From assembly GCA_017444485.1 (NCBI GenBank), contig JAFSWM010000052.1, forward strand, positions 1 to 57,357: a stretch of DNA of 57,357 nucleotides, written 5' to 3'. Positions 293-27,790 of this stretch are shown here, piece by piece (the stretch's first letter is position 1; the number at the start of each line of letters is the position of its first letter). The stretch is from Bacteroidaceae bacterium (lineage in GTDB: Bacteria; Bacteroidota; Bacteroidia; Bacteroidales; Bacteroidaceae). Under the pieces are notes generated by a model. The model made no database searches. It was not told the origin of the DNA and saw nothing but the letters and a program-made list of their open reading frames with translations. The position numbers and the translations under genes were made by a program.

Positions 293-3200
293 TTATCTCA
301 CGATGAACTTCCTGCCGTGTGTCACATAGATGCCTGGTGCGAGGCGCTGGTCGCTGTGGGCGGGCTTGACGAGTCGGCCCTGGACGTCGTACACGGGTGC
401 TGATGTCGCCGTGACACTGTGTCCGCTGATGCTGGTGATCTGTCCATCGATGTTGATGTACAACGTCTGCCAGGTGCCTTCGGTCAGTTTGATGAAGGCA
501 CGGAAGGGTTCGCAGGAGGTCTCGGAATCTACGTATTCGAAGCGGTCGCCCACGAGGGTGTAGTTGTCATCGTCGGCGAGGATGCTGACTGCTGCGTAAC
601 TGCCCACGAAGCGTGTGCCGTCCTTGCTGATGCTAGGCGTGCCGCTCTGAGGCGTGGTGAGGCTCGTGGCGGGAATGTTGTACACGGCGGTGTGGGGCGT
701 GCCGTCATCGGCGAGGGTGGCATTTGTGAGCCCAGGCTTGATGAGGTAGGGCACGTTGGGCTCCATCGCGCTGACACGTTCGAAGTAGAGCACGTCGCCG
801 GCGGCCATAATGAATTCAGCCACTTCCGTTCCTGTTCCAAATACGGCGACGGGGTCGTTCACGGCGCAGGGTAGCACGATGGTGTTCCACTGGCCTTTGC
901 TGAAGGTGCGTTTCAGCGTGACGCTGGCGGCGGGAATGTCGGCGGGAACGTAGTCGTTGCTCTCGTTGAGGATGATGCTCTTGGGGCGGAGGTCTTCGGT
1001 GAGTATCTCCACACTGGTGGTGCCAGTGACGGTGAAGGTGGCTGCAGTGCCTTCCACGGTGTTGCCGTTGATGACGATTCCCGTGACGCGGTATCCGCTG
1101 CGTGCGGTGGCCACGAGGTTCACCTCGGTGCCATAGGCGATGTATGACGTACCGATGCTCACCTGGGCTGCGGCGGTGTCGCAGGCTACGTCCACTCGGT
1201 ACTGCCTGGGGATGAACACGGCGCGCACGTCTTGTGCGTTGTCAAGCAATAGGGTGAGGGGATTCTGTGTGCTGAACTGCTTGAGCCCTGCCGTCACTGC
1301 GTCGTCGGTGGCGGCGAGGCGGCGCGTGCCTGCTGCGGCCTGGTTGTTGCCTTCCGTTGCGTGCGCCCAGTATGCGAAGGTGTAGCCCTCGGCGGGCTGG
1401 GCGGTGAGTTGCAGCGAGGTGCCGTAGGCTACCTCTCCGGTGGCGGTGGCTACTGCGGCTTGTCCGTCGGACGCTACGACTGCCACGGTGGTGGAGCCGG
1501 CGAGGAGCGGCCAGGCGGATACGTTGTAGTGTACCAGTCCGTCCTTGAAGAGCACCCACTTCACGAGCATGCCTTCGCCTCCGGTGTAGCCCTCTTTGTC
1601 GGTGATGCTGTCGGCGCTGACGGCGAGGACGTAGTAGCCGTTTGCGGTCAGTGCGGCGGTGTTCACCACGAAGATGCTGTCAGAGCCAGTCAGAGCGGTG
1701 ATGGGCAGCGGTGTGTCGATGACCTCGCCCTCGTAGCGCAGGGTGATGTCGTCGCGGGTGAATGTGGTGGCGTCGATGCCCTTGTTGAAGCGCACGGTGA
1801 GTTGGCTGATGGGTTGCTGTGCCAAGGCGTCGGCATCGGGCAGGGTGTCGATGGCTACCACGGCGAGCCTCACGTCGGGGGTGGGTTCAAATTCTACGAG
1901 GTAGGTGTATGTGCCTCCTGCCGTGACGTAGTCGACGATGTGCAGGCGGTTGTCGTCAATGGGGTCGGCGCCGTCGCGTAGGGTGTAGCGCGATGTCCAG
2001 AATGCCTCGGCGTCGAGGGCCCGGCTGGTGTTCTCGGCGGTGACGCTGGTGATGCCAGCTGCTGTGGCGGCGGGGTTGGGCAGGTTGGTGTAGAACCATC
2101 CGCTGCGCTCTGCCACTACGCTTACGCGGCACTGCGTGGGTGAGAGGCGCTCCACGGTGGTGGCCTCGACCAGCGGCGACAGCGGCTCGTTGGTGCCGTT
2201 GCTGAAATAGATGCGGTCGGGGGTGTCGTTTACGTCGTCTTCGTCGTTCACTACCCATGCCCGCAGCACGGTGTCGCCCACGGTGGCTTTGATGCTGTGG
2301 ATGAGTTCGTGTATCGTCACGTCCTCGAGCAGCGTGAGGTTGGGATTGCCGTAACTATTCACGTGGTTGGCTGTGACGTTGTAGTCGGTGAAGTGGCCGA
2401 GCACGTCGCAGGCGAGATACCATGTGGCATAGGTGCTGGTGCCGGCGGGTATGTCGCCGAATTCTGTGGCTACGCTGCCGCCGAGGGCTGGTGTCTGCGT
2501 TCCTCCATTGAGGCTGCTCGATACGATGCTGAAGGTGGCGGCGAGGCCCTTGGCGTTGTCCACGATGCGTGGCTGCTGGGTTATCATGCGTACGTCGGTG
2601 GCGTCGCCGAGGCCTTTGTTGTGCATCAGCAGGCTGAACTCGGCGGGCACCACGGGTTCTACCACGTCGGGTGTGAGGGGGTTGTCGCCATAGATGTCGC
2701 GTTGCATGAAGTAGGTGAGGTCGAGCACGGGCGAGGGTTTCACCATGAGGCTCACGGGCAGCAGGTCGCGCGACTGGGTGGCAGTGCCGTCGTTCCAGGT
2801 GAGCGTGCCGCCGAATGACCATGTGGTGAGCGTGTCGGGGGCTGCATAGCGGGTGGGGATGAAGCGTATGGTGGCCACACCCTTGCTGCTGCCGGCCAGC
2901 GTCCAGGGACCAATCGTGTCGCCGGTGAAGCCCTCGATGCTTTCAAAATTGATTTGGAACTCGTGTGCGGTGGCTTTCTCGCCCAGCAGGTTCTCCACGA
3001 GCAGGTCGAGGTTGATGTCGGTGAGTGGTGTGCTGGTGTTGTTGGTGACGGTGAGCGTGCCGATAAACGTCTGCCGCGTCATCACGAGGCGCTGTGAGAT
3101 TTCGAGTTGCACGGTGGCGCAGGTGTTCGACTTCAGACTCTCAGAGTAATCCAGTAGTGCAGCGTTGGCCTTTTCCACCAGGCTTTTCCAGTCTGCAAAG

Positions 3201-6200
3201 CCTGCGCTCACCAGGGCCACGTTGCACGAGTCGCGTCGTTCGATGATGGACGAGAGTCGGGCGGCGTCCACATAGTTGTCGCCCTCCACGGCTCCGCCGC
3301 TGGCTTTCTTGATGGTGTTGATGTAGCGTTCGGCGTATCTCCTCACGTCGAAGTCGAGCACCGTGGCCTGTCCGCCGGGCATCAGTTGCAGGATTCCGTA
3401 GGGGTCGGTGCCGGCGCTGAGATTGTCGGGTATTTCTGTGAGGGGCTGCATGGTGAGCAGGGTGCCGCTTTCTTCCAATTCGTTCAGCCTTGCATTCACG
3501 GCGTCGAGGCTCTGTGCCACTTCGTCGGTTGCTGCATCGATCATGTCGGGGGCGTCGAAGAGGGCCAGACACCAGTCTCTGAACGTTTGCATATAGGTGG
3601 TGTAGAGGCGTCCGTAGTTGTAGAAGGTGCGGACGAGGGAGGGCACGGACTTGTTGTTCGCCTCGTAGCAATTAATGGCATCTCCGAGGCAGTAGATCAT
3701 GCCGTATAAGGAGCCATAGGTCGGGATGTAGCGCATGGAGCACGAGAGAGAGGTTTGCGTCACCTCTTTGACTGCATTGCTGTAGGAGAGGCCGACCATG
3801 CCGCATTCATACCATGGGATATACCCGTTAATGCAGGGCCACAGGTCGCAGACGTCGGTGGGGCAGGGGAGGATGTTCGGACGGTTGTCGGCGCTGCTTG
3901 CCGAGCCTCCGCCGCTGACGCTTCCGCCGCGCCAGATGCTGGGGCCTCCAAGGCCTCCTCCAACGCCACCACCAGCATAGGTGCCGGTAGATATGGTGGG
4001 GCCGGTGGGGCGACAGTGGCTCCAGTCTTTAACGGTCACCACGCTGACGCTGATGTACTTCTGTATGAGGTCTTCATAACACTCATAGTGCCAGTATGTG
4101 GTGATTTTGGCAAAGCATTTCACAATGAGTTTGCTGCCCTGCTCCGACTGTCCGCCGCCGCTGCTTCCGCTTCCGCCGCTTCCGCTGCTACTTGTGTCAT
4201 CCGGCCCGCCGAAGGTGATGTCTTCTGCGATGCGCTTGGCACGCACGGGGATGGTGTAACTCTGGTTTGCGCCCAGGTCGAAGTCGTCCGCGTTGACCAA
4301 CGGTGTGAGTTCAAAGCCGGGCACCTCGGGCAGTTCTAAGCGGCACTGCTTGGCGGCGATGAGTCCGTCGTTGCGGAGTATGGCGTTGAACATCAGGGAG
4401 CCGCCATAGGGCACGGCGTCGAAGGCGATGGTGTCGGGAAGCGTCACACGCACCACGGGCATCGGCACGCTGGTCTCGTAGGTCACCGTGGTCTTTATCT
4501 CATATTCGTCCTGGTAGGTGTTGTCCTCCACCACTTCCCAGAGCACGTTCACGGCTTCGTAGGAAAGCGTGGCTACGTGGGTGGTGATTTCGCCAGGGCT
4601 GATAAGTATGTTCTGTGTATAGCCGCTGTGCTTGTCGGCGGTGACCACGAGGCGGTAGTAGCCCTCGCTGACCGGCGGCAGTGTCACTCCGTTCTCGCTC
4701 TCGTCGGGTGTGATGCCACTGCAGACGAGCGCACCGGTGTTGTAGTCCAATAGTTTCACGGTGGCATCCTTCACGTAGGGATGTTCGCCGGCGGCATTCC
4801 CATAGTAGGTGTTCTCGTCGCGAACCACTACGCGGAGCGTGCCCTCGGCCTCGCTGACCACTTTCACGTTGAAATAGAGCGATACGCCGCTGCCGCGCTC
4901 ACAGTTCACGCCGATGCTCCCTGTCTGAATGATATTCACATCGAGGTCGCCGGGGTTGAACTGCAGCATCATCGTGGCGCTCTCACCATAGGCCAGCGAC
5001 GGCATGGTGGCGGCAGAGGCCAGGGTGACAAAGCCGTTCATTGACGTGGGGAGCGACACGGTGATAGCCCCCGTCTCGCCCTTCCCGTTGTTGGTGATGG
5101 TGAGTGGGTAGGTGCGGCTTTGCCCTTTGGTGACGGTGGTGTTGATGGAGGATGTAGAGAGCGCGAGCGACGGGGTGTGCAACCGCGTGAAGTTGTATGT
5201 GGTCACCTCGATCGACTCTCCCTCGTCGGTGGAGAACGTCACGATGATGCGCTCCCAGTCAGTCCCCGTCGAGACGGCGCTCGACGTGATGGTGTAGGGG
5301 ATGTCCACCGTGGCATCGCCTTCCAATACGCTGAGCGAGCCTACCTCCATGGTGTAGCCCTCCGTGGCGCCGCTGAGCGTAGGTCGTATGTTGTGAAGCG
5401 GCAATGCCGAGAGGTTGCGTAGCGTAATCGTGCCGTTGTGTGCCTCGCCCAGGAAGATGTCGTTCTTTACATACCCACCGGTTTGTTCAAAGCCATAGAC
5501 GTTGAATGTGCCGGCAGCCGCTGTGCTCTGCTCGCCCGTGTTGCACACACCGTAGGCAAACGCTCCGCGATAGGCCGCGGGGCGGTCATAGCGTATGCTG
5601 AAGCGGCCCGCCTCGTCGGTGGTGCATGGCAGGGGGGTGCGTGCGCCGTTATAGACGATGTAAGGCTCTATGGCAATGCCTGCGACGGGGGCGTCGGTCA
5701 CCGGTGTGATGGTGCCGCTGAGCGTGATGGGCTGTGTGCTCTTGTAGGCTTCGCTGTCGCTGCTGATGCTGAAGTTGTACAGAGAGCCCACGGTGAGCGT
5801 CGCTTCAGCCGTATTGTTCACGTATTGCAGTTCTGCCACCGTGCGCGAGGGGTTGATGGTGGCTGTGTGAGTGTATGAGCCTGGCACCGTGCTGGCGGTG
5901 AGTGTGGTGGAGAGGGTGGCCTTCTCGCCCGGAGCCAGCGGCGCTGCCAGAGAGAGCGTGGCTACTGTGCTGCCGTCCCTGACGACTTGCGCGGGAACGC
6001 CCTGCGGCAGTGTGGACGCACCGATGTTGCTGATGGTGAGTGCCACGTCATACTGCGAGCCAGCAAGCGGGTTCGTGCTGCTGAGCGCCATGCGCTCTAT
6101 GGTGGCGTCGGGCAGCGTGCGGTCGCTAACGAGCAACCATGCGGCGCCGCTGTTGTATCCCTCAGCCGAGGCAATGATGCTTACGGTGCGGTCGCCCTCA

Positions 6201-8290
6201 GTCACCGCGTTGCTCGGCACCACGATTTTGCCGCTGACACTGACAGAGCCCGCGGGGATGGTCAGCGTGGCGGGGATGGTCATGTCGGTGGCGTCAGCCG
6301 TGATGCTCACGGTGAGCGGGCTCGTGACGTCAGCCGTGTTGCGGCTCACGGTCAGCGTAGCCCCCTGGGTGTCGCCCTCCAGGATGGTCTGTTTGGACAC
6401 TGTGAGCGTCAGGGTGGGGCCATCGTCGTCAATGATACTCACTGGGACAGACACCGCAGCCTGTTGCTCCCCGGTGGCGGCGCAGTTGCAAGAGGATATA
6501 TAGACGTAGGCCGTGACGTTCACCGTGCGGTTGCCATCCACGACGCTGTTGTCGATGACTCCCAGTGGGAAATTCACCGTGGTCGTTCCGGCAGGCATCT
6601 GAATCGTCTTGTACTGCCCGTAGCGTATGTGGCCCTCTTCGTCGTCGCTGAGTTTCACCGTGATGTTGTTTGCTGTCACACCGGTGCGCGTCAGCGTGGC
6701 ATAGATGGCCTGAGGGCCGGCACTCTCGCTCACCGTGGTGGGAGAGAGCGTGAGGGCTATGGCCGGCACATCGTCATCGTGAAGCACAAACATCGCCGTG
6801 GCCTTTGAGTGGTGCTCCGCCGTGGCCGTGATTTTCACCGTCTCGTCGTTGGCGGGGTCTTTGTCATCGATGATCGGGATGCGCACGCTGGCCGTAGTTT
6901 CGCCATCGGCAAAGACGAGGCTGGCAGGCAGACGGAAGCGTTTAGACTGTTCGATGCCAAGGCTGACCACCAGTTCGCCCGCAGCATAGCGAGCAGGTAC
7001 GGTACCCGTTAGCACCATCACGTCGCCCTCGTTGTAGTCCTCTTTGTCCAAGGCGAGCGTGAGCGGGATGAGGTCGTCGTCCTCCACATAGAGCGTATCC
7101 GTCACCGCGTCATAGCCATTCGCCGCCAGCACCGTGAACGGCACGGCAGCGTCGATGTTGATGTCCGTGTTGTTGATGGGACTCACACTGAAATACACAC
7201 GGCTCGTACCTACGGGGAACGTCACACTCCCGCCGTCAGCGAAACTCACACGTCCGCCCTGAGCCGTGACAGAGAACGTTTCTGCCACATTCAGGTTGCC
7301 CGTTCGGCGCAGTTCGCAGTTGTACCGCCCCGCGCCGTTCTCGGGGATAGAGCCCTTGTAGGGCGTCAGCGTCAGGTGTTTGATCACGGCGAGGGAGTAG
7401 GCCGGAGCGCTGGCGGTGTTGTTGCCCTGTGCCAGGGTGGTCTCCCCGTTTCCTACCGCCGGCACAATCTGCACCACGGCGCGGCAGTCGCCACTGATGC
7501 CAGGATAATTCGCCAGGGCGATTTGCGCAGCGCGGCTCACGCTGGCCCCCATGCCGAGCGTCCCGTCGTAGGCCGTGGTGCCCACATACACACGCGTGCC
7601 ACCCTCGTTCTCAATGTAGATGCGTTCCGTCCATCCAGCGCCAGTGGCGGTGTCGCCCACGTTCTGAACGTTCCACGAGAAGTTCAGTACATCACCCGGC
7701 GCACAGCGCGACTCCGCCACGCTGACGTCGGTGGGCAGCAGGTCCGGATGAGCCACGTCGGTGATGCTCACCGAGCCGTTCTGCTCACCAGTGGCCACGT
7801 TGCGTCCCTCGCGGTCGGAGAGAATCACGCTGCCAGCAGTGAGATAGACCGGCAGCACACTCCCCACAGCAAGCGACTGCGGGAGGTCAATGTCGAATGT
7901 AAGCAACGTTCCCCCCGTGCCTTGAAGGCGCGCGTTACGCTCGCTGAGAATCAGCACGAGGTACTTGTAGTATCGCACACTGCCCACGCCCGAAACGCTC
8001 TGAAAGACCGTCGATACTTCGCGCAGGCTCACGCTGTGCCCATCGCCGCGTGCGCTCTTCAAGCGAGCGCACCACTGGCCGTCAGCGTCGCGGTTCAGAC
8101 GGTAGGGCAACTGGATTTCGAACTGCGCAGCCACGATGTCGCTGGAGTTCTCTAACTCAACGGGTAGGCTGAGCGTGCGTCCGGCAGGATAGGATACGGC
8201 AGGCACGCGCAGCACGTTTGTTTGGGCCGAGGCCGCAAAAGCCAGCAGCCAGCCCAGGCAAACGATGGAGATATATCTGATGTTTTTCAT
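293..8290 (-). CDS. Giant secreted mosaic protein (cohesin-like, CARDB, Calx-beta, sorting tail)
   Basis: This is a 2665-residue exported protein. I start it at the ATG giving MKNIRYISIV, because a hydrophobic signal peptide ending in ASAQ (about residue 23) follows; the upstream in-frame extension is repeat DNA. After the signal peptide comes a cohesin-like beta-sandwich (about 25-180). Then follow a CARDB-like domain (LLPTDVSVAE onward), several Calx-beta/Ig-like domains with acidic EDDD or IDDD linkers (about 310-730), and another CARDB-like domain. Two Gly/Ser-rich linkers lie near 1370-1390 and 1435-1465, flanking a non-repetitive Cys/Trp-rich centre. An SbsA-like Ig domain sits near 2150-2240 and an InlB-like repeat near 2260-2330. 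The C terminus has the sorting-tail pattern YDVQGRLV...APGIYV. No catalytic motif is visible. A surface scaffold or adhesin role is inferred from architecture alone. Confidence 0.85.
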   Translation of the reverse strand: MKNIRYISIVCLGWLLAFAASAQTNVLRVPAVSYPAGRTLSLPVELENSSDIVAAQFEIQLPYRLNRDADGQWCARLKSARGDGHSVSLREVSTVFQSVSGVGSVRYYKYLVLILSERNARLQGTGGTLLTFDIDLPQSLAVGSVLPVYLTAGSVILSDREGRNVATGEQNGSVSITDVAHPDLLPTDVSVAESRCAPGDVLNFSWNVQNVGDTATGAGWTERIYIENEGGTRVYVGTTAYDGTLGMGASVSRAAQIALANYPGISGDCRAVVQIVPAVGNGETTLAQGNNTASAPAYSLAVIKHLTLTPYKGSIPENGAGRYNCELRRTGNLNVAETFSVTAQGGRVSFADGGSVTFPVGTSRVYFSVSPINNTDINIDAAVPFTVLAANGYDAVTDTLYVEDDDLIPLTLALDKEDYNEGDVMVLTGTVPARYAAGELVVSLGIEQSKRFRLPASLVFADGETTASVRIPIIDDKDPANDETVKITATAEHHSKATAMFVLHDDDVPAIALTLSPTTVSESAGPQAIYATLTRTGVTANNITVKLSDDEEGHIRYGQYKTIQMPAGTTTVNFPLGVIDNSVVDGNRTVNVTAYVYISSCNCAATGEQQAAVSVPVSIIDDDGPTLTLTVSKQTILEGDTQGATLTVSRNTADVTSPLTVSITADATDMTIPATLTIPAGSVSVSGKIVVPSNAVTEGDRTVSIIASAEGYNSGAAWLLVSDRTLPDATIERMALSSTNPLAGSQYDVALTISNIGASTLPQGVPAQVVRDGSTVATLSLAAPLAPGEKATLSTTLTASTVPGSYTHTATINPSRTVAELQYVNNTAEATLTVGSLYNFSISSDSEAYKSTQPITLSGTITPVTDAPVAGIAIEPYIVYNGARTPLPCTTDEAGRFSIRYDRPAAYRGAFAYGVCNTGEQSTAAAGTFNVYGFEQTGGYVKNDIFLGEAHNGTITLRNLSALPLHNIRPTLSGATEGYTMEVGSLSVLEGDATVDIPYTITSSAVSTGTDWERIIVTFSTDEGESIEVTTYNFTRLHTPSLALSTSSINTTVTKGQSRTYPLTITNNGKGETGAITVSLPTSMNGFVTLASAATMPSLAYGESATMMLQFNPGDLDVNIIQTGSIGVNCERGSGVSLYFNVKVVSEAEGTLRVVVRDENTYYGNAAGEHPYVKDATVKLLDYNTGALVCSGITPDESENGVTLPPVSEGYYRLVVTADKHSGYTQNILISPGEITTHVATLSYEAVNVLWEVVEDNTYQDEYEIKTTVTYETSVPMPVVRVTLPDTIAFDAVPYGGSLMFNAILRNDGLIAAKQCRLELPEVPGFELTPLVNADDFDLGANQSYTIPVRAKRIAEDITFGGPDDTSSSGSGGSGSSGGGQSEQGSKLIVKCFAKITTYWHYECYEDLIQKYISVSVVTVKDWSHCRPTGPTISTGTYAGGGVGGGLGGPSIWRGGSVSGGGSASSADNRPNILPCPTDVCDLWPCINGYIPWYECGMVGLSYSNAVKEVTQTSLSCSMRYIPTYGSLYGMIYCLGDAINCYEANNKSVPSLVRTFYNYGRLYTTYMQTFRDWCLALFDAPDMIDAATDEVAQSLDAVNARLNELEESGTLLTMQPLTEIPDNLSAGTDPYGILQLMPGGQATVLDFDVRRYAERYINTIKKASGGAVEGDNYVDAARLSSIIERRDSCNVALVSAGFADWKSLVEKANAALLDYSESLKSNTCATVQLEISQRLVMTRQTFIGTLTVTNNTSTPLTDINLDLLVENLLGEKATAHEFQINFESIEGFTGDTIGPWTLAGSSKGVATIRFIPTRYAAPDTLTTWSFGGTLTWNDGTATQSRDLLPVSLMVKPSPVLDLTYFMQRDIYGDNPLTPDVVEPVVPAEFSLLMHNKGLGDATDVRMITQQPRIVDNAKGLAATFSIVSSSLNGGTQTPALGGSVATEFGDIPAGTSTYATWYLACDVLGHFTDYNVTANHVNSYGNPNLTLLEDVTIHELIHSIKATVGDTVLRAWVVNDEDDVNDTPDRIYFSNGTNEPLSPLVEATTVERLSPTQCRVSVVAERSGWFYTNLPNPAATAAGITSVTAENTSRALDAEAFWTSRYTLRDGADPIDDNRLHIVDYVTAGGTYTYLVEFEPTPDVRLAVVAIDTLPDADALAQQPISQLTVRFNKGIDATTFTRDDITLRYEGEVIDTPLPITALTGSDSIFVVNTAALTANGYYVLAVSADSITDKEGYTGGEGMLVKWVLFKDGLVHYNVSAWPLLAGSTTVAVVASDGQAAVATATGEVAYGTSLQLTAQPAEGYTFAYWAHATEGNNQAAAGTRRLAATDDAVTAGLKQFSTQNPLTLLLDNAQDVRAVFIPRQYRVDVACDTAAAQVSIGTSYIAYGTEVNLVATARSGYRVTGIVINGNTVEGTAATFTVTGTTSVEILTEDLRPKSIILNESNDYVPADIPAASVTLKRTFSKGQWNTIVLPCAVNDPVAVFGTGTEVAEFIMAAGDVLYFERVSAMEPNVPYLIKPGLTNATLADDGTPHTAVYNIPATSLTTPQSGTPSISKDGTRFVGSYAAVSILADDDNYTLVGDRFEYVDSETSCEPFRAFIKLTEGTWQTLYINIDGQITSISGHSVTATSAPVYDVQGRLVKPAHSDQRLAPGIYVTHGRKFIVR

Positions 8291-8312: not shown

Positions 8313-8409
8313 ATTGACCATTGATGATTGACCATTGAACATTTTTGCAAAACCGAGAGCAAGGGTGTTGGCAATGGTCAACGGTCAATGTTCAATGTTC
8401 AATGATTTT
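8313..8409. repeat. Inverted-repeat element, copy A
   Basis: The left arm (8313-8344) is built of attgacc/attgaac units. The right arm (about 8371-8409) carries the complementary ggtcaa/gttcaatg units. The loop contains accgagagcaagggtgttgg. Copy B at 27813-27910 has the same arms and a clearly related loop, accggctgcaaagggttttg. This copy overlaps the 3' end of the 1803-aa gene and supplies its TGA stop codon (8399-8401). It also occupies the 5' flank of the 2665-aa gene. Confidence 0.75.
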
Positions 8410-11400
8410 TACGCACTTTGAACTCCCCGCCGTCGGCGGTCTTGATGATATAGACGCCGGCAGGGAGGCGGCGGAACTCGTCGGCCACATTTCCGGCTGC
8501 CACACGTCGGCCCAGCATGTCGTAGATTTCGCCCGTGGCGGATCCCGTGGCGGTCATCGTGTCGATACCTGTTGCGCCGTTTTCTACAGCGGCAGGCAGT
8601 CGTGCGCCTTGCACGTCAGTGAGACGCAGGTCGCCCAGGCTTGTACTGGCGGGCAATCCCTTAAGGAGCGTGTGCTCACCGCTCAGCAGCGTAGCACCCT
8701 CAAGCGAATAGAGGAGCACGCGTACCGAGCCGTCAGCCTGCTGCCTCGCTGAGAGACGGAAGCCCGATGGCACGGTGGCAGCGCTCAGATCAGCCACCCC
8801 GGCGCCATAGAGCGTGAACTGCAACGCCGCCACCTCGTCAGCGCACGTCAGGCGCAGTGTGCCGCCTGCGGTTGTGCAGACGTTGCGGGCGTCGTACATT
8901 ATATTATATAGCGCGCGAGTGGCCGCCGCACTTTCCCCCTCAAATTCGAGGATACGGTTGATGGCCAAAACGCAGTCGCGCACGTCCATCGCAGCGTCAG
9001 CGTTGGCGTCGGCAGTGGTGTAGTTGAATGGGACAGAAGCAGGGCGTGCCTGATAGAGCACATGATAGATGATGCTTTGCAGGTCGGCCACATCCACCGT
9101 GAGGTCAATGTTTGCGTCGCCCTCCACCCAGTCGAAGGCGAAAGGCTGAGTGCCACGCCCGCCACGCGACACGTCCATAATATATATGGTGTCGCGCTGA
9201 CCGGTGAAAGCGTCGCACTCGTTCGTGGCGGTGTATGCAGTTTCTCCGTTCAGGCTGAGCCAGGAGGTGCTAGAGGTGGCATAGGTGTAACCATCAGCAG
9301 CGGCTACGCGCTCGCCAAGACGAAGGAAGCCATCGGCCCCTGCCGCTTGCTGCGTGGCGTGACAATAGGTCTGCAGACTGTTTGCATGCCAGGCGAGCGG
9401 CTCACCAAGCATTGCCCGTACCGCAGGATAGGCTTCCGTCACAATGGGGAGTTTCGTCGCGTAGTCCACGAATTGGTATCGCAGGTCAAGGTCATCAGAC
9501 ACTCGCTTCATATAAGTCGTATCTATCGCCGTGCTCACGCCGGTCAGCAAGTTGTAACTGGCGTTGAAGATGCTCAGGCTTGGAAGTTTTGTGGCCAACG
9601 GCGCCACATCGCCCTCCAAGCGGTTGCCCTGCAGATAGAGGAAGCGCAAGGAAGTGTTGGGGGCAGAGATGTCGGCTGCGGCTTCTTCAAGGCGTCCGCT
9701 CAGCGTGTTGTTGGAGAGATCGAGTGTGGCAAGTTCAGAAAGGCCAAAGATTGAGCCGCTCAGTGTGCCAGAGAGCCCCATGCCAGAAAGGTCAATGCCC
9801 GTGACGCGGTCGCCCTTTGTCGTCACGCCAATCCATTTGCCGAAATACAGCGAATTGCTCGTGAAGTCCCAAGGCTCAGCCCATGTCTCACCGCCGTTCT
9901 CGTTGTAGAAGGCCTGCAGAATGGCAAAGTCGGCATCGGCGAGGGTGTCGCCTGTGACGAATGGCAAAAGGCGGAACTCTTTCCACACCCCAGCCGCGGC
10001 ATAGAGCCTTTCAGAACCTTTGGGTACGAACAGCGTGACATTGGCGCGGTTGCTCGGAGCATCGCCCGTGGTAATTGCGGGCGGGCGTTCGCAGAAGACG
10101 CGGAGCGAGTCAAGATTCTCGCAACCGCTGAAGTAGTCAAAGGACTCGCCCAGGCTGTAATCTTGGTTGCGCCCCAGGCTGACGTATTTCAGCGAGGCAC
10201 ATGATGAGAATGCTGCGCTGCCCACCCTTACGACGCTGTCGGGAATGACGGCTTTTGTGAGACCGGACTGCGAGAATGCGCGATCCCCGATGCTTTGCAG
10301 CGTCTGAGGCAGTTCAAAAGTTTTGAGGCTGCTGCAATGCTGGAAAGCACTCTCGCCTATTGTGCGAAGTGAGGACGGGGTGTTGATGTTGTTTAGGCTT
10401 GCGCAGTAGATGAAAGCCATGTATGGGATTTCTGTCAAAGATTCAGGCAGATGAACACGCCCGAGCGCTGTGCAGAACATAAACGCACCGTCGCCCATTG
10501 TGGTTACGCTTTCTGGCAGGGTGACATCGGTAAGCCCTGTGCCGCCGAAAGCCATCATGCCGATTTCAGCGAGGTTCTCGGGTAGGGAGACCGATGTGAG
10601 CGCCCTGTTGTTATAGAACGCCTGTTGGCGAATAGCGGTCAGCGTGGAGGGTAGAGAGATTTTGGAGAGGTTGGCGTTGGAGTCAAAAGCGTATTCCCCA
10701 ATTTCACGAACGCCCTCAGGTACGGCCACGCTGTCAAGCATACTATTGCCTGCGACGGCATAACTGCCGATGCGGTTGGCGCTTGGTAGGCAAATCTTAG
10801 TCAGCGCAGGCATGTTGTAGAACATGTAGTCGCCTATCACATCGTTTTCAGTCTGGTATGCGTCGTTTTGCGCTGTTACCGTGCCATCGGTGGCGACGGA
10901 GTAGGAGTGGTAACTCTCTCCGCCGCTGACGATCCATGCCTCGCTCAGATCAAGTTCGGCCACAGCGCTGAGACGAGTGTGTAGGAAGTTGATGTCCGTA
11001 CCGTTGAGCGGGCCGGAGACTTTGAGCGTGACGATAGATTCTGTATGGGAGACCGTCGTAATGGCCCTTTCTAACCCGCCACCAGCAGTTGCTTCTGTGG
11101 ATACAACGAGCGAGGTGAGGTAAGGAAGTGGATTAACCAACGTGATAGCAGCCATTATGCGGTCGATGGTGGCTTGTGTGGCAGCGTGGGACTTGAGTTC
11201 TGCGGCTGCTGCTGCCAGGCTGTTATCAAATTCCATCGCGTCAGCCTCCGTCAGTTGGGCGTAGAATGTGCTGTGGTCATATTGAGCGGCATAGGCGCGG
11301 AGTTCACTCAAGCACCAGTAGTTGAAGCCGTCGCCGTTGGAACGAGAGCCATTCTTGACGCTCTGTACCGTGCTGTTCACTGCCATACGTACGTAACGGT

Positions 11401-13810
11401 AGGCTGCGGGGAGTTCGAAACTCGTCACACCGCCGCCCTCACCCTCGGGGATGATGCTGCGGAGACTATTAAGCATGGCTACACTCACCGTGTTGCCGTC
11501 AGCGTCGAGGAGCGGGTACTGCCAGTTGAGGGTGTAGACGCCCAAGTTTTTCCAACCAGCGCTGGGGACAAATTCCGTATCGGTGGAGAGCAGGCTCTCG
11601 TCGTTCGTTCCGTAGAGCGTCACGGTGTAGGGAATGTCCGGCGTGCCTGCATTGCTGCGTACAGCATATTTCAGCACGAGCGTAGACACCTCTTCGCCGA
11701 GGTCCATCTGGATGAAGTGGGGCTCAGTGCCCAGCACACTGGCGTGCCAACTGGTGTGGATGAAGGAGGTGCCGTCAAATACGCCGTCGAAGAGGCCAGC
11801 AGGATTGTTCTCTACGGGGTCGGCGGGATATACCCAAACCTGCGTTTTGTTGGTCAGGAGGCCTTCGCCGATGGGGAACGTGCCGTCCTCTGTGCCGTTG
11901 AAGTGGATGGTGCTTCCGGCGTCACGCAAATTGGTCGCTATCGTGAAGTATTTTTGCAGCGTGTCGTTGAGAGCGTTTTGGGCAATGGTGTTGCGCAGCG
12001 AATCGATCTTGCTGTCCATTATGGAAATGGTCTCGTCGTCCACTGCTACAACGGTCCATGCGCTACCGCCTGCTGCTGGAGTCCAGTTCACCATATACTT
12101 TCCGTCAATAGCAGTGTGAAGGCCGGTGTACACAGACCCTGTGATGCCCGTGTTTACGATGGTGATGAAGCCTGGCACCGCAGGGCTGATGCCCACCACG
12201 AACTTGGCTGCCTCTTCTGCGCTTGCCGTGAAGCCATAGGCCGTGAAGCGTTCGGTGGTGTTGTTCAGGTACTGGTCGACGGCGAGGTTCTTAATGGTAT
12301 AGAGGCTCTTGCCGTCGTCGGTGGTGCCTGCATCCTCAAACTGCCAAATGTACTGGGGCTCAGCGTCAGCACCGAATACCGTGGCGTCAAATGCTTCGCT
12401 CCACAACGCGATGGACGAGAAAATGTTGGCATAGGCGGCGTCCACATTGGTGAGGTCGTCGCTCTTGTCCATCATGTTGTTGGACGTGCCGATACGTGCG
12501 CTGACTAAGTAGTAGTAGCCAGATTGGAAATCCAAAGGAATTTGTCCGGCGAGTAGCGCTTCGTAGGCGGCACGCAGGTTTTCCGCGGCCTGTGTGATTT
12601 CCTCGTCGCTGTATGTGTCTAAATCGGCCTGGATATCTAATGCTTGATCGTAGGTTTCCTGGCAAGCGTCAATGAGTTCCTGCGGGTAGCCACCAATCAC
12701 ATCGGCCTGGTAATTGCTACCATCGAACTGAATCTCAGTCAGCACCCGTTCAAGGACCATCCAGGCAGGAGGATCGGAGAGTTCTACTTTGTAGATAGTG
12801 AACTTACCATTGGCACCGTCGCCGCTGATCCAGGAGGCTACGGTCGCTCCGTCGCCATTGCCAACGCCACCATTACCATTGAGTTCTTTGCCGCTGGGCA
12901 TCGTGAAGTGGAACACGCCGTCCTCGGGCATAGTGATGGTGTAGGTGGCAGGACTGGCCTGTGTGCTCAACGCTTGGTAGCCGCTCACATCGGGCAGGTA
13001 GCGTCCGTAGGCCGAACGGATGTTGGCCTTGACCTCCGTGTCGGAAGCAGACGATATCTCGAACGTGAAGACATACGAGGCGTCAGAACCTTCCTCGCAA
13101 TTCGCGGATTGGTAGAGCGCGTTGTCTGCCCGCTCGTAGATGTAGGCGTTACGTCCGTTGTTGAACAGCACATAGGTGCCTTCGTTCCTTAGTTCGGATA
13201 AACTCGCCACAGGGTTTCCTATGGCACTGATTACTCTGTCGCTATACCCCTTCCTAATCGTCACTTCGTAGGTGAAGAGGCATGTCCAGTTGCCTATACC
13301 GCTGTTGAATGTGGCGGTGACGGTGCTACTTGCGCCATTTGTATTAAGCCACACGGCCTTGTCGGGGAGTACTTTCCATCTCACGGCCATAGAACTATTG
13401 TAGCCGCTGGCGATGTTGGCGATGTCTGCGTTGGCATCCTCGGGCTCAAAGCGTGTGGCGTCAGACAGGTCGCTGGTGAAGGCCATGGGGCGTTCGGTGC
13501 CCGTGATGTATTGCCCGTCAATGTTCTGCAGCGCGTAGCCGCCGTCGGGGTGAGGAACCACCTGCCACGACGTGCTACCGTCTGCCATGAAAGACTCGCT
13601 GAGACAGCCGGTCTTGTCTAAGTAATTCTCGGCAGCCGTGGTGTGGTTCTGTAGTGCCACCCACAGTGTACCCGCATCTGCTTTTGACATGATGGTCGCC
13701 GCGTCAAGCGTGTTCGTGCCGCTCTGGGTGGTGTGCACCTGCGCGAACCCGCCTGCGCCCATACAGACGAACATCGTCAGCATGGTGAGAAATGTCACGA
13801 CTTGTTTCAT
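8399..13810 (-). CDS. Secreted BspA-like leucine-rich-repeat protein with dockerin and sorting tail
   Basis: An exported protein of 1803 residues, started at MKQVVTFLTM because the signal peptide (cleavage near GGFAQ) begins there. The N-terminal third holds beta-trefoil/lectin-like stretches (ALQNIDGQYITG, YGRYLPDVSG). An F5/8 type C (discoidin)-like domain lies near 665-850. BspA-type LRR_5 repeats (IGEYAFDSNANLSKISLPST pattern) span about 990-1250, and plant-type LRRs (LATLDLSNNTLSG) about 1325-1420. A dockerin-like domain with two Ca-loop segments (GDANIDLTVDVADL; ADANADAAMDVRDC) occupies about 1562-1625. It is followed by a short cohesin-like sandwich and a sorting tail (IYDMLGRRV...PAGVYIIK). 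BspA-type LRR proteins in this phylum commonly mediate adhesion. The stop codon is donated by the adjacent repeat. Confidence 0.88.
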   Translation of the reverse strand: MKQVVTFLTMLTMFVCMGAGGFAQVHTTQSGTNTLDAATIMSKADAGTLWVALQNHTTAAENYLDKTGCLSESFMADGSTSWQVVPHPDGGYALQNIDGQYITGTERPMAFTSDLSDATRFEPEDANADIANIASGYNSSMAVRWKVLPDKAVWLNTNGASSTVTATFNSGIGNWTCLFTYEVTIRKGYSDRVISAIGNPVASLSELRNEGTYVLFNNGRNAYIYERADNALYQSANCEEGSDASYVFTFEISSASDTEVKANIRSAYGRYLPDVSGYQALSTQASPATYTITMPEDGVFHFTMPSGKELNGNGGVGNGDGATVASWISGDGANGKFTIYKVELSDPPAWMVLERVLTEIQFDGSNYQADVIGGYPQELIDACQETYDQALDIQADLDTYSDEEITQAAENLRAAYEALLAGQIPLDFQSGYYYLVSARIGTSNNMMDKSDDLTNVDAAYANIFSSIALWSEAFDATVFGADAEPQYIWQFEDAGTTDDGKSLYTIKNLAVDQYLNNTTERFTAYGFTASAEEAAKFVVGISPAVPGFITIVNTGITGSVYTGLHTAIDGKYMVNWTPAAGGSAWTVVAVDDETISIMDSKIDSLRNTIAQNALNDTLQKYFTIATNLRDAGSTIHFNGTEDGTFPIGEGLLTNKTQVWVYPADPVENNPAGLFDGVFDGTSFIHTSWHASVLGTEPHFIQMDLGEEVSTLVLKYAVRSNAGTPDIPYTVTLYGTNDESLLSTDTEFVPSAGWKNLGVYTLNWQYPLLDADGNTVSVAMLNSLRSIIPEGEGGGVTSFELPAAYRYVRMAVNSTVQSVKNGSRSNGDGFNYWCLSELRAYAAQYDHSTFYAQLTEADAMEFDNSLAAAAAELKSHAATQATIDRIMAAITLVNPLPYLTSLVVSTEATAGGGLERAITTVSHTESIVTLKVSGPLNGTDINFLHTRLSAVAELDLSEAWIVSGGESYHSYSVATDGTVTAQNDAYQTENDVIGDYMFYNMPALTKICLPSANRIGSYAVAGNSMLDSVAVPEGVREIGEYAFDSNANLSKISLPSTLTAIRQQAFYNNRALTSVSLPENLAEIGMMAFGGTGLTDVTLPESVTTMGDGAFMFCTALGRVHLPESLTEIPYMAFIYCASLNNINTPSSLRTIGESAFQHCSSLKTFELPQTLQSIGDRAFSQSGLTKAVIPDSVVRVGSAAFSSCASLKYVSLGRNQDYSLGESFDYFSGCENLDSLRVFCERPPAITTGDAPSNRANVTLFVPKGSERLYAAAGVWKEFRLLPFVTGDTLADADFAILQAFYNENGGETWAEPWDFTSNSLYFGKWIGVTTKGDRVTGIDLSGMGLSGTLSGSIFGLSELATLDLSNNTLSGRLEEAAADISAPNTSLRFLYLQGNRLEGDVAPLATKLPSLSIFNASYNLLTGVSTAIDTTYMKRVSDDLDLRYQFVDYATKLPIVTEAYPAVRAMLGEPLAWHANSLQTYCHATQQAAGADGFLRLGERVAAADGYTYATSSTSWLSLNGETAYTATNECDAFTGQRDTIYIMDVSRGGRGTQPFAFDWVEGDANIDLTVDVADLQSIIYHVLYQARPASVPFNYTTADANADAAMDVRDCVLAINRILEFEGESAAATRALYNIMYDARNVCTTAGGTLRLTCADEVAALQFTLYGAGVADLSAATVPSGFRLSARQQADGSVRVLLYSLEGATLLSGEHTLLKGLPASTSLGDLRLTDVQGARLPAAVENGATGIDTMTATGSATGEIYDMLGRRVAAGNVADEFRRLPAGVYIIKTADGGEFKVRKNH

Positions 13811-16618: not shown

Positions 16619-16622
16619 TGGG

Positions 16623-23219: not shown

Positions 23220-26200
23220 ATGAGAAACGTACTATTCACGTTCAGCATGCTGCTGCTCGGCGTGATGGATATGGCTGCCGCCACGCCCGTCACCACTTTC
23301 GAGAGCGGCAAGAAGTACTACATCCGCTGTGAGTACGCCGACGGCTACATGGCACTCGGCGCAAACCACGGCTCAACCATCGAACTGTATTATGTGCAGG
23401 GCACCGGTGCTGTGGCCGCGGATGGCTATTGGTACATTGAGTCCAGCGGCTCGAACTACACGTTCCGCAATGCCTCCACAGGCGAATACCTCGCCTGGTG
23501 CTCCACCTACAGCAACGACACAAAGTACATGACGCTCCAAACGTCGGTTGACGACAACGCCCGCTGGAACATCAGTTCCACAGCAGGCACCTTCGTCACC
23601 ATTCAGAACGCCGCCCACCAGTCGTACTACTGGAACCTGCGCACCAACACCTATCTCATGGGTTGCTACGAAGGCCTGGGCAATGCCAACGGGCGTTTCT
23701 ATATTTATGCCGAGGGCGATGGTGACGGCGGCAGCGGCAGTACCGACCCTGACGACCCCCAGGGCGACACCCTGTGGGACCCCGACAAGGTCTATGTGCT
23801 GCACAACGTGAACGACTTCGGATATATCGTGTACAACCCCGACGTGATAGAAACCGCACCCGTTGTCAAGGGCTTTGCCAACGCTTCGCGCAACTGTGCC
23901 AACGAGGCTTTCCGCGAAGAGATGGACGACTCCGACCCCAACAACCAATGGCGCGTGGAGACCAACGCCAGCGGGCAGGTCGCCTTCTACAACGTGGGCC
24001 TGCAGCAGTACTTGTACGTCTCCGTACAACAGTCGTACTACGGCGCTTCGCGCAACTTCACGTTCTCCACAACCCCCACCTATTTCACCCCGACGCAGCG
24101 AAAGGAGGGCGTCTATGTGTTCGCCGTGACCGTAAGCAGCGGCGGCGGCTCGTATGGCCCCGGGGGATACACCTACGAGACCACCTACTATCTCTGCGCC
24201 GCGCCGCAGCAGGCCGCTGGCACCACCGTGTTGCTCTACTCCAATATCAACGACGACGGCAGCCAGTTTGAAATCGTGGAGGCCTACCAAGGCGAGCGTA
24301 TCACCATCCGCGACATGATTCTGAGCAGTTCGGCCATTAAGATTCCCGTGGGCAAGTCGTACACCCTGCCCGTGACCATCACACCGACCGATGCCACCAA
24401 CAAGAAACTCGCCTGGACCACCGACAACGCGGCAGTAGCCACCGTCTCTGCCGACGGCACAATCACTGCCGTGGGCACGGGTACCGCCGTCATCACCGCT
24501 ACCACCAAGGACGGCACCAAAATCTCTGGCTCCTGCACCGTCACGGTCTATGAACCGCAGATCGGTGAGATTGAGGGCGACTTGCTCTTTGTGAAACAGG
24601 CCAGCGGCGCGATGGACGTCTTCCCCGTGTCGCTCATCGCCACACGCACGGACGGCGACGACGGCTCGCTCAGTATCACCACCACCGGCGGAGAAACCTT
24701 CACCTATGCCGCCACCGAAATTGTCAGCGTGTCCAAGCAGGCACCCGACGACCTCCCTGTGCTCACCTCTTATAAGTTCAACAACAAGTACAACGACCAA
24801 CTGCTTGTTGATGTAATTGCCGAGGAAGAGATTCTCGAGGACGGCACGCTCGGCCTGCCCGAAACCATCAGCCTCACCGTGGGAAATGCCATCGGCAAGC
24901 GCCTCACCGCTTCGTTCAATGCCTCTACCGAAGACGCCACCGTCTATGTGAACGGTGTGGAGCAGGTGAGCAAACGCACGCGTCAGCGCTTCGACCACGA
25001 CATCGTCTATACCGTTGCTCCGCGCGCCCATAAGGTTTACCTCTCCACCGCTGGCACGGCCAACATCCTCGACGTGTCCAACCCCTCCAAGCCCGTGGTC
25101 CTGGTCAGTGACGACGGCGAAGGCACCTACTCATGGGCGCCCTACGGCAGGCAGTACACCGTACACGTGGATTGGGCCACCGACAACCCCACCGGCGAAT
25201 ACAACGTGCCCACGGTGTACATCACGCTCGATGGCAGCGCCACCATCAGCAGCATCACCAAGTCCGACTATATCGGTGCCACCATACGCATTGACGGCGC
25301 AGGCGTCTATCCCGACCTGGCAGAGACCGCCGTTAATATCAAGGGACGCGGAAATAGCAGTTGGGGCGGCTCCACAAGCAGTACCAAGAATCCCTTCCGC
25401 CTGAAGTTCGACAGCAAACAGAAAATCCTTGGAATGCGAAGCGGTAAGAGTTGGGTGCTCTTGGCCAACAAGCAGAGTGGCTCAATGACCGCCAATGCCC
25501 TGGCGTTCAAGATGGCCGACATGGTGCAGAGCGTGGGCTGCAACCACATCGTGCCCGTGGAACTCTACATCAACGGAGAATACCGTGGCAATTACAACGT
25601 CACCGAGAAGGTGGGCTTCGCCAACAACAGCATCGACCTCGCCGACGAGAGCGAGGCCTTCATGCTCGAACTCGACACCTACACCGACGAGACCTACTAC
25701 ACCGACAACGCCTACCGCATCTGCACCAAGATCCACGAGCCCGACCTCGATGATATCCTAGACGACACCGAGCGCGCCAATATGCTGGACGCCATTCTGC
25801 AACACTGGAAGGAATTCACCTATGCCGTATATAATAATGAAGACTATGAGACGTGGATTGACGTGGACGCTTTTGTGCGCGCCATGTTCGTCACCGACCT
25901 CGCCCGCAACCAAGAGTTGAAACACCCCAAGAGTTGGTTCGTTTACAACGAGCACGCCCTGGCCAGCGACGGGCTGGATGGCTTCACGCTCAACTACGAG
26001 TCGCCCTACGTATTTGGCCCCGTGTGGGACTTCGACTGGGCATACGGCTACGACGGCTCCTACACCTATTTCATCAACAAGGCCGAGGAGGACATTTTCA
26101 GCAGTAGCGGCAACGGCACACCCTTCTTCCGCCAACTGCTGCGCGGCAGCGAAACCGTGCAGAAGGCCTACTACGCCCTGTGGCATGAGTTCATGACAGG

Positions 26201-27170
26201 CGGCGGGCTGGAAGAACTGCTCGAATACTGCGACGAATACTATGAGTTCGTTCGCCCGTCGTTTGTGCACAATGCCACCAAGTGGAACGACGGCACGCAG
26301 TATGCCACACAGACCGCCAACGCAAAGTCATGGCTTGCCAAGCGCGCCGCCTACGTGTACAACAACCTCACGCCCTACGACATCTCCGACCTCGACAACA
26401 TCTCCCAGCCTGGTAGCGGCGACGCCAATGGCGATGGCTTCATCACCACTGCCGACGTGGTGGCCATCATCAACCATGTGCTGGGCATCGCCAACGAGAA
26501 CTTTGAAATCCGCCAGGCCGACACCGACGGCAACAACCTCGTGACCATGCGCGACGCTGCCGCTGTCATCCAAATGGTGATGGAGCAGCAAGCCTCAGCC
26601 ACGCGCCAGTTGCGTCTGCCCACCGCCGAAGCCGCGCTGCGCCCCGCCACCTTTGTGGCCGCCACGGGCGAAGAGGCCATCATGCCGCTGGCCCTTACCA
26701 TCGCCAGCGGGGAATACAGCGCGCTGCAGTTTGATGTGACGGTGCCCGATGGCATGCAGTTCCTCGGCGTAAGCCTTCCCGCAGAATTCCAGGGCTACAG
26801 CGCCACGACCTCTCGCCTCGACGCCCGCCACTATCGCGTCAGCCTTTATGCCAGCAGCGGCAACCCGATGCCCGAAGGCACGTTCACCCTGCAACTCTCG
26901 CTCGTCGCTGACGAACTTATCGCCGACGATGCACGCATCGTGAGCGTGACCGACGCCATGCTCGTGGACAACGAGGCCGAGGACAACCGCCTGAGCAGCG
27001 TCTCCGTGCGCTTCCACATGCCCGACGAAACCACAGCCATCAACCAACTCACCGCCCGCACGGCTGCCGCACTCAGCAGCGGCGAGGTCTATGACCTGCA
27101 AGGGCGGCGCGTGGCACGCCCCGTCAAAGGCGGCATCTATGTTGCAGCAGGTAAGAAAATCATCTTTTAA
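23220..27170 (+). CDS. Secreted CotH-kinase protein with Big_2, dockerin and sorting tail
   Basis: An exported protein of 1316 residues with a signal peptide of about 20. A lectin-like N-terminal region (GEYLAWCSTYSNDTKYMTLQ) is followed by an Asp/Gly linker and more lectin-like sequence. A Big_2 Ig-like domain (PTDATNKKLAWTTDNAAVAT) lies near 360-445. The CotH kinase-like domain covers about 660-1045, with NIKGRGNSSW, the KNPFRLKF strand and the metal-site motif PVWDFDWAYG (Asp937, Asp939). A dockerin-like domain (GDANGDGFITTADVVAIINH; ADTDGNNLVTMRDAA) lies near 1066-1124, then a cohesin-like sandwich and a sorting tail (VYDLQGRRV...GGIYVAAGKK). CotH proteins are atypical protein kinases in spore coats; the role in Bacteroidales is uncharacterised. 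It heads a four-gene co-directional cluster. Confidence 0.92.
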   Translation: MRNVLFTFSMLLLGVMDMAAATPVTTFESGKKYYIRCEYADGYMALGANHGSTIELYYVQGTGAVAADGYWYIESSGSNYTFRNASTGEYLAWCSTYSNDTKYMTLQTSVDDNARWNISSTAGTFVTIQNAAHQSYYWNLRTNTYLMGCYEGLGNANGRFYIYAEGDGDGGSGSTDPDDPQGDTLWDPDKVYVLHNVNDFGYIVYNPDVIETAPVVKGFANASRNCANEAFREEMDDSDPNNQWRVETNASGQVAFYNVGLQQYLYVSVQQSYYGASRNFTFSTTPTYFTPTQRKEGVYVFAVTVSSGGGSYGPGGYTYETTYYLCAAPQQAAGTTVLLYSNINDDGSQFEIVEAYQGERITIRDMILSSSAIKIPVGKSYTLPVTITPTDATNKKLAWTTDNAAVATVSADGTITAVGTGTAVITATTKDGTKISGSCTVTVYEPQIGEIEGDLLFVKQASGAMDVFPVSLIATRTDGDDGSLSITTTGGETFTYAATEIVSVSKQAPDDLPVLTSYKFNNKYNDQLLVDVIAEEEILEDGTLGLPETISLTVGNAIGKRLTASFNASTEDATVYVNGVEQVSKRTRQRFDHDIVYTVAPRAHKVYLSTAGTANILDVSNPSKPVVLVSDDGEGTYSWAPYGRQYTVHVDWATDNPTGEYNVPTVYITLDGSATISSITKSDYIGATIRIDGAGVYPDLAETAVNIKGRGNSSWGGSTSSTKNPFRLKFDSKQKILGMRSGKSWVLLANKQSGSMTANALAFKMADMVQSVGCNHIVPVELYINGEYRGNYNVTEKVGFANNSIDLADESEAFMLELDTYTDETYYTDNAYRICTKIHEPDLDDILDDTERANMLDAILQHWKEFTYAVYNNEDYETWIDVDAFVRAMFVTDLARNQELKHPKSWFVYNEHALASDGLDGFTLNYESPYVFGPVWDFDWAYGYDGSYTYFINKAEEDIFSSSGNGTPFFRQLLRGSETVQKAYYALWHEFMTGGGLEELLEYCDEYYEFVRPSFVHNATKWNDGTQYATQTANAKSWLAKRAAYVYNNLTPYDISDLDNISQPGSGDANGDGFITTADVVAIINHVLGIANENFEIRQADTDGNNLVTMRDAAAVIQMVMEQQASATRQLRLPTAEAALRPATFVAATGEEAIMPLALTIASGEYSALQFDVTVPDGMQFLGVSLPAEFQGYSATTSRLDARHYRVSLYASSGNPMPEGTFTLQLSLVADELIADDARIVSVTDAMLVDNEAEDNRLSSVSVRFHMPDETTAINQLTARTAAALSSGEVYDLQGRRVARPVKGGIYVAAGKKIIF

Positions 27171-27181: not shown

Positions 27182-27790
27182 ATGAAACCTACATCCAGTA
27201 TATTTTTCGCCGTTCTCCTGGCGCTCGCTCCCGCCACTGCCGCACTCGCACAGAATGCAGTGAGCGCCGAGGCCACGACAGTCACCGTGGGCAAGGAATG
27301 GGCCGTCACCGTTTCGCTTAACAATGCGGTGGAGTACACCGCGTTCCAGGCCGACATCGCCGTCCCCGAGGGCGTGACGCTCAAGGAGAACTCGCTCGTT
27401 CCGAGCGACCGTCTGAGCGGCCACACCGTCAGCACCGCCACGTTGGCAGACGGCACCATCCGCGTAGTGGCCTATAACGACGGCAACGCCAATCTCTTCG
27501 GCAGCAGCGGCACCCTTTTCTCCCTCACACTCGCTGCAGCCTCCGAGATTACCGAAGCCGGCGCACGTGCCACGTTCCGCAACCTTCGCTTCACTGATGT
27601 GGCGCGCCAGGAGACCGTCCTCGATGGTTTCTACGTGCCTCTTGAGACGAACACACCCACTGGCATCCGTTCCGCTACGCTGAACGTTGCCAATGGCCAG
27701 CCCGTCTTCGACCTGCAGGGCCGTAGGGTGCTGTCGCCACGCAGCGGCGGTGTGTATATCATCGGCGGACGCAAAGTGTTGGTGCGCTGA
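27182..27790 (+). CDS. Small secreted cohesin-like protein with sorting tail
   Basis: A 202-residue exported protein. After the signal peptide (cleavage near ALAQ, residue 24) there is a single beta-rich domain with cohesin-like layout: VTVGKEWAVTVSLNNAVEYT, then AFQADIAVPEGVTL, a GTLFSLTL strand and a final strand. The last 30 residues are a sorting tail (VFDLQGRRV...GGVYIIGGRK). It begins 11 bases after the dockerin-bearing CotH gene and is almost certainly co-transcribed with it, making it a natural candidate partner; binding is inferred, not shown. The cohesin assignment rests on strand pattern and the G-T-L-F-S-L-T-L motif. Confidence 0.82.
   Translation: MKPTSSIFFAVLLALAPATAALAQNAVSAEATTVTVGKEWAVTVSLNNAVEYTAFQADIAVPEGVTLKENSLVPSDRLSGHTVSTATLADGTIRVVAYNDGNANLFGSSGTLFSLTLAAASEITEAGARATFRNLRFTDVARQETVLDGFYVPLETNTPTGIRSATLNVANGQPVFDLQGRRVLSPRSGGVYIIGGRKVLVR

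Follow-up and report, generated by a model that had tools for sequence, protein, structure and literature searches.

A 57,357-nucleotide stretch of a Bacteroidaceae genome (GenBank assembly GCA_017444485.1, contig JAFSWM010000052.1, positions 1 to 57,357; hereafter the window) carries four genes that form two dockerin/cohesin gene pairs. On the minus strand, the leucine-rich repeat (LRR) dockerin protein P0004 is followed by P0003, and on the plus strand the CotH kinase dockerin protein P0001 is followed by P0002. We consider it probable, though well short of certain, that the two pairs build a surface assembly of type IX secretion system (T9SS) substrates, in which neighbouring dockerin and cohesin proteins bind in trans as a docking system. 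An earlier sequence-only reading had placed the four genes correctly without stating that the first two lie on the minus strand, and it had treated the four proteins as a single group, missing the paired arrangement. The features are as follows, with protein lengths counted from ATG starts.

293..8290, minus strand: P0003 (2665 aa), signal peptide, N-terminal cohesin, CARDB/Ig-like repeats and T9SS-type tail; predicted partner of P0004
7826..8188, minus strand: P0003 cohesin domain, residues 35-155 (E 3.4e-12, source genome left out)
302..439, minus strand: P0003 T9SS-type tail (E 1.5e-8)
8399..13810, minus strand: P0004 (1803 aa), signal peptide, BspA-type LRR, dockerin, short cohesin-like sandwich and tail
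8951..9121, minus strand: P0004 dockerin with two canonical calcium (Ca) loops (profile and loop motif)
8639..8878, minus strand: P0004 diverged cohesin-like sandwich (E 1.8e-5 and structure model; weakest of the four)
8438..8566, minus strand: P0004 T9SS-type tail (E 2.7e-7; Por_Secre_tail 24.1 bits)
23220..27170, plus strand: P0001 (1316 aa), signal peptide, RicinB-like stretch, Big_2, CotH kinase, dockerin, cohesin and tail
25341..26357, plus strand: P0001 CotH kinase domain (PF08757, 80.8 bits)
26418..26579, plus strand: P0001 dockerin with two canonical Ca loops (Pfam, profile and loop motif)
26661..26966, plus strand: P0001 cohesin domain, immediately after the dockerin (profile E 1.9e-21 and structure model)
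27039..27164, plus strand: P0001 T9SS-type tail (E 2.6e-8)
27182..27790, plus strand: P0002 (202 aa), signal peptide, one cohesin and T9SS-type tail; predicted partner of P0001
27284..27595, plus strand: P0002 cohesin domain (E 2.4e-32)
27665..27781, plus strand: P0002 T9SS-type tail (E 1.6e-9)

The modules were identified with custom cohesin, dockerin and tail profiles built from relatives, from which the source genome and its near ortholog were left out. The cohesin profile matched P0002 (E 2.4e-32), P0001 (1.9e-21), P0003 (3.4e-12) and P0004 (1.8e-5), and the tail profile matched all four proteins (E 1.6e-9 to 2.7e-7). The dockerin profile matched P0001 (6.1e-17) and P0004 (1e-10) and reported no match in P0002 or P0003. 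Judged by these scores, the module matches lie far above chance, with the P0004 sandwich the least certain. The best solved structure for the cohesin profile was 5n5p, a cellulosomal scaffoldin cohesin of Ruminococcus flavefaciens; a single-sequence phmmer search of P0002 against solved structures had returned just a weak tail match (4kca, E 0.0016), and the cohesin match required the profile. The sandwiches classify as cohesin-like, and the fold itself is shown for that of P0001. An AlphaFold2 single-chain model of the P0004 C-terminal unit had a predicted local distance difference test score (pLDDT) of 85.6.

Both dockerins retained two 12-residue Ca loops, and helices followed the loops in both models. 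Dockerin_1 (PF00404) scored 31.6 bits in P0001 (cut-off 22.9), and in P0004 it scored 17.0 bits in the protein scan and, in the genome search, 22.6 bits (22.9 once neighbours are counted), against a gathering score of 22.9. The NCBIfam scan added nothing for cohesin, and its T9SS tail model picked out P0004 alone, with 19.6 bits in the protein scan (cut-off 23) and 24.1 in the genome search. In dockerin repeat 2, an arginine at position 11 of the loop, a position that we take to be specificity-determining, occurred in 3 of 121 two-loop dockerins, namely P0001, its ortholog in locus L056 and the unrelated P0004 (141 dockerin matches, from which 20 without two such loops were dropped and duplicates kept). 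The arginine common to both window dockerins is a post hoc hint that both might use the same cohesins.

Most of the domain picture in the sequence-only reading was confirmed: four proteins with a cohesin-like sandwich, two of them with a two-loop dockerin directly before it, a sorting tail on all four, and a 202-aa protein consisting of signal peptide, cohesin and tail, which begins after a gap of 11 bases (27171-27181) downstream of the dockerin gene. Its suggestion of LRR, CotH and Ig-rich cargo in place of glycanases was supported for the CotH and LRR dockerin proteins of the window, but not for the Ig-rich P0003. The P0003 sandwich sits near the mature N terminus (residues 35-155) and not ahead of the tail. 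Since P0003 carries a cohesin and no dockerin, we regard it as a likely partner of the LRR protein rather than as cargo.

The features expected of T9SS cargo were present: Sec-type N termini, judged by eye, in P0001 to P0004, family-profile tails in all four, and the translocon protein SprA, which the source genome encodes (2631 bits). With SprA present and tails that fit T9SS sorting, all four proteins should reach the surface.

The first pair recurs in relatives. A scan of genome contigs anchored on the CotH motif gave, among the matches listed, 79 best loci, mostly from Bacteroidaceae, Prevotellaceae, Prevotella or Bacteroidales, with one from a Clostridium sp. and many from rumen or herbivore gut. 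These loci held 92 CotH frames, 47 with a dockerin (40 of which also had a cohesin) and 45 without. A separate same-strand cohesin gene lay within 600 bp of 28 of the 47 CotH frames with a dockerin versus none of the 45 without (Fisher's test, 2.5e-11), with distances taken between stop-to-stop frames. When only frames with at least 2 kb of downstream sequence were counted, the figures were 26/42 and 0/38. The 28 neighbouring partners consisted of cohesin and tail (15), cohesin and dockerin (10), or cohesin alone (3). Among homologs that match P0002 in size, some have a tail at the end and others a dockerin, the latter at L195 165-818 (-) and L201 2245-2877 (+), as if tail and dockerin were interchangeable.

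The second pair type was recognised in a genus search, and 20 loci around cohesins in large frames were then hand-picked. In 19 of the 20, a dockerin gene lay next to a separate cohesin gene, the exception (L218) stopping at a contig end. Five of the picks were already known to hold a dockerin (at L224 the picked frame is the dockerin gene itself), which leaves 14 of 15 as the unprompted figure. In the cohesin tree described below, the P0003 cohesin grouped with that of L045 (support 100/99). The sequence-only reading had proposed a search for the same trio in related genomes; the layout of both pairs recurs there.

At the genome level, dockerins accompany cohesins. Of 151 family genomes searched, 66 had a match to cohesin profile A1 and 87 to Dockerin_1; a dockerin was found in 62 of the 66 genomes with an A1 cohesin versus 25 of the 85 without (Fisher's test, 6e-17). 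Eleven of the 151 genomes each hold at least 22-36 dockerins (E ≤0.001). In 40 stretches picked from five of these eleven dockerin-rich relatives (G125, G096, G110, G030, G139), we found 44 dockerin frames, five of them cut C-terminally; 28 of the 39 complete frames end within 25 aa past the dockerin, and no tail or cohesin was found there. The dockerin motif hardly varied within G110 or G030, was similar within each of G125, G096 and G139, and differed between genomes. At the order level, the cohesin profile matched 24 of 295 genomes, the source genome included. Of the 23 others, 18 were checked, and every one of these contained dockerins, from 1 to 52 apiece.

Several relatives encode multi-cohesin proteins. 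A dockerin gene stood directly before the cohesin gene or genes in 10 of 12 multi-cohesin loci (10 genomes); the exceptions were L242, with dockerins within the same protein, and L262, at a contig start. The frames contained 2 to 8 cohesins, and 10 in L237, which is cut by the contig end (custom profile, E 0.01). Pfam listed Cohesin in one of five multi-cohesin proteins scanned (58.8 bits); since Pfam Cohesin is insensitive, the multi-cohesin counts rest on the custom profile and the A1 search. Por_Secre_tail was over its cut-off at the end of four of the five, the fifth being cut, and the relatives include scaffoldins of eight cohesins ending in this tail. In L146 and L170, from dockerin-rich relatives, several cohesins and dockerins occur per chain, for example in the order dockerin-cohesin-cohesin-dockerin-cohesin-tail.

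Dockerin cargo in these relatives was diverse. The stretches taken from G186, G247 and G467 contained 37 complete dockerin frames: 17 were dockerin-terminal, 14 had the dockerin 100-300 aa from the end and 6 had it near the N terminus. Domain scanning of 36 cargo proteins, chosen by dockerin score and not randomly, gave LRR, peptidases C10/C25/M6/M14/M60/S8, PAD, Endonuclease_1, Omp28, Fib_succ_major, FG-GAP and lectin-like domains, several proteins showing the dockerin alone; no glycoside-hydrolase catalytic family was listed among these 36. In one of them, L261, a PNGase F C-terminal domain was listed together with a sialidase N-terminal domain that stayed below threshold. In G186, a Bacteroidales genome (L249, L251, L253), gingipain-type C25 peptidases and a PAD protein end in a dockerin without a tail; tailless LRR proteins with a C-terminal dockerin also occur among the relatives. 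The source genome itself has three dockerins. Profile A1, which was built with the four cohesins described here among its rows, finds four single cohesins in it, and Pfam adds one more on contig C40; neither search gave a multi-cohesin protein (metagenome-assembled genome, ~95% complete). Its third dockerin protein (L002, G000 contig C40 ~21749-22267, -) is also a dockerin-cohesin protein, above the Pfam cut-off for both modules, and is presumably a GH31-like enzyme.

The established role of these folds is to pair cohesin with dockerin, and the pairing of the genes suggests the neighbours as binding partners. We propose the following working. The first gene of each pair would encode the cargo, a CotH kinase with a lectin-like stretch or a BspA-type LRR protein ending in dockerin, cohesin and tail, and the next gene its partner, in which a cohesin lies close to the start of the mature chain and a tail at the end. 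All four proteins would leave through Sec and then the T9SS. After export, the cargo dockerin would clamp the cohesin of the neighbouring protein on the surface in a Ca-dependent manner, and two anchored proteins would so be tied to each other. The additional cohesin that follows the dockerin may serve as a second docking site, which would give short chains or nets, or may instead be a cap in cis. The whole looks like a system that displays adhesins and kinases, and not enzymes for digesting fibre.

Several points weigh against this proposal. Binding among P0001 to P0004 is predicted from their domains and gene order, and, as both partners of a pair are already tailed, anchoring alone would need no dockerin. 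Pfam Cohesin (PF00963) reached 17.0 bits in P0002, below its gathering score of 24.1, and was not listed for P0001, P0003 or P0004 in the protein scan. Pfam Cohesin is insensitive for these proteins. The P0004 sandwich is short and weak. The query that ranked the 79 best loci itself holds a dockerin and a cohesin, all neighbour counts come from kin genomes and are non-independent, and dockerin-cohesin proteins feed both counts of the genome-level association and explain part of it. Neighbouring separate cohesin genes are missing for 19 of the 47 CotH-dockerin proteins, eight of which carry a free-type cohesin at their own C terminus. P0004 and P0003 are spaced by 108 bp (8291-8398, -) with a strong RNA hairpin inside (-31.6 kcal/mol, z -4.1), which makes their co-transcription uncertain. 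Mirror-tree partial correlations were 0.36 for dockerin and free cohesin, 0.35 for dockerin and own cohesin, and 0.38 for the two cohesins. This analysis (38 loci, counting the window pair twice, as the window and as L191, under a duplicate filter that matched exact domain limits) was positive for each module pair and so did not tell trans from cis.

The phylogeny of the cohesins bears on the possibility that the dockerin of P0001 or P0004 folds onto its own following cohesin, forming a rigid C-terminal block before the tail, with the separate cohesins otherwise employed. A tree of 102 cohesins, with a bootstrap not yet fully converged, placed 36 post-dockerin cohesins from CotH proteins in one clade (99/98), a point in favour of such a cap. 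Nine other post-dockerin cohesins fell within the free cohesins (98/86); they belong to CotH-dockerin proteins with a free-type C-terminal cohesin, defined as such by custom profiles (Pfam lists no CotH in L042 and L044). A division of post-dockerin and free cohesins into two clean clades was rejected, with 8 label changes on the tree and 0% of bootstrap trees with one. The cap also agrees with the short linker between dockerin and sandwich in the P0001 unit model (helices 52-64 and 69-74, first strand at 80), and with the 71 proteins that have both a dockerin and a tail, of which 61 have a detected cohesin and 70 at least 103 aa in between. However, most complete dockerin frames in the five dockerin-rich relatives (28 of 39) end within 25 aa after the dockerin, without a sandwich, and strand residues are conserved in free and post-dockerin cohesins alike (Gln in 90 and 88%; the RV..YS stretch). 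The separate cohesin genes next door, which adjoin 28/47 CotH-dockerin but 0/45 dockerin-less CotH frames, would be superfluous for a pure cap in cis, and we regard this explanation as unlikely.

Two further explanations are less probable still. The loci could belong to a true cellulosome, a scaffold for plant-fibre enzymes with CotH and LRR proteins as accessories, as in R. flavefaciens and clostridia; known cellulosomes do have dockerin-bearing CotH proteins, LRR proteins, peptidases and serpins (PMC12484212, PMC2930009 and PMC3413522, in their accessible text), dockerins and cohesins of camel-rumen Bacteroidetes bins have been read in this way (PMC6071333, accessible text), herbivore gut is named for many relatives, and the dockerin-cohesin protein on C40 is presumably GH31-like. 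We nevertheless think a cellulosome very unlikely, as the source genome has three dockerins and no multi-cohesin protein that we could find, the 36 cargo proteins picked by dockerin score list no glycoside-hydrolase catalytic family, and the window dockerins sit on CotH and LRR proteins and not on glycanases. By the features examined, the proposed assembly works like a cohesin-dockerin system and is no cellulosome. It is likewise improbable that the Ca repeats and sandwiches are inert, merely stable spacers of adhesins without mutual binding, given the gene pairing at both pair types, the way in which dockerin motifs agree across unrelated cargo of one genome but vary from genome to genome, and the finding of frames of 5-10 cohesins where the genome has 10-52 dockerins.

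The relatives raise a wider possibility for the Bacteroidales, which we put forward tentatively and with more doubt than belief: a T9SS-coupled scaffolding in which a dockerin replaces the T9SS tail, so that protease, deiminase or LRR cargo with a bare dockerin would be held by tailed cohesin proteins ranging from one-cohesin adaptors to eight-cohesin scaffoldins. At its boldest, this idea would have the cargo bind a cohesin-tail adaptor in the periplasm and cross the outer membrane piggyback through the T9SS.

The nearest precedent is the complex proposed for Candidatus Stygibacter (Cloacimonadota), with a T9SS-type scaffoldin bearing a C-terminal domain and C-terminal dockerins on S8 and C25 peptidases (PMC8542988, accessible text). 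It differs in belonging to another phylum, in its one 3,755-aa scaffoldin with CBM2/CBM3 and in the glycanases among its cargo; the dockerin-cohesin gene pairs and CotH/LRR cargo found here do not appear in the accessible part of that account. Among camel-rumen Bacteroidetes, Bin136 has five dockerins and one cohesin and is one of those bins in which a gene encodes two to four cohesins in tandem, and bins 49 and 58 have 11 dockerins each (PMC6071333). There, domain counts were taken as cellulosome potential, and T9SS tails, gene pairs and protease, LRR or CotH cargo are not described in the accessible text. The cellulosome of R. flavefaciens FD-1 resembles the present system in that its dockerin cargo includes LRR proteins, peptidases and serpins, but it belongs to a Firmicute with many glycanases and scaffoldins (PMC2930009, as far as its text is accessible). 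CotH-like domains also occur within some cellulosomes, where they belong to cellulase complexes (PMC12484212, accessible text), whereas here the likely partner is a one-cohesin tailed neighbour. The cohesin modules 2jh2, 2vo8 and 2w1n of Clostridium perfringens are on glycosidases of a Gram-positive, unlike those described here. To our knowledge, T9SS secretion is not expected in Gram-positives.

Related modules have been noted before, according to the accessible parts of the sources. A 2014 rumen secretome assigned cohesin and dockerin fragments to Bacteroidaceae, a family from which cellulosome producers were unreported (PMC4035507), and work on cockroaches detected dockerins in cells of Bacteroidales (PMC10266427). 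Three other studies report no such modules, or none tied to cellulases, in the material studied (PMC5831590, PMC8810776, PMC6247017), and in a 2024 survey of cellulosome bacteria the string 'Bacteroid' appears in the references only (PMC11557425). Our literature search, which lay outside most subscription journals and reached many papers in part, found no description of neighbouring dockerin/cohesin gene pairs or T9SS-type scaffoldins in Bacteroidales. In the text that we saw, the gene pairs, the tails and the protease, LRR and CotH cargo in Bacteroidales are not described; cohesin-dockerin assembly itself is known. The loci supply concrete partner genes in Bacteroidaceae, and they suggest that, by way of the T9SS, the modules bring kinases, adhesins and proteases together on the surface of a Gram-negative cell. 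If the binding is true, it would be a new assembly principle in a major gut group and a natural route for protein display.

Minor features of the locus complete the description. The RicinB-like stretch of P0001 scored 23.3 bits, under its cut-off of 25.6. The hairpin between P0004 and P0003 is built from inverted ATTGACC-type repeats, and A rather than U follows it on the transcript, so it is no classic terminator. Parts of P0004 residues ~16-910 (1824-aa numbering) are 68-76% identical to source-genome frames on contigs C14, C87 and C40; this sharing of the N-terminal half suggests module exchange among surface proteins.

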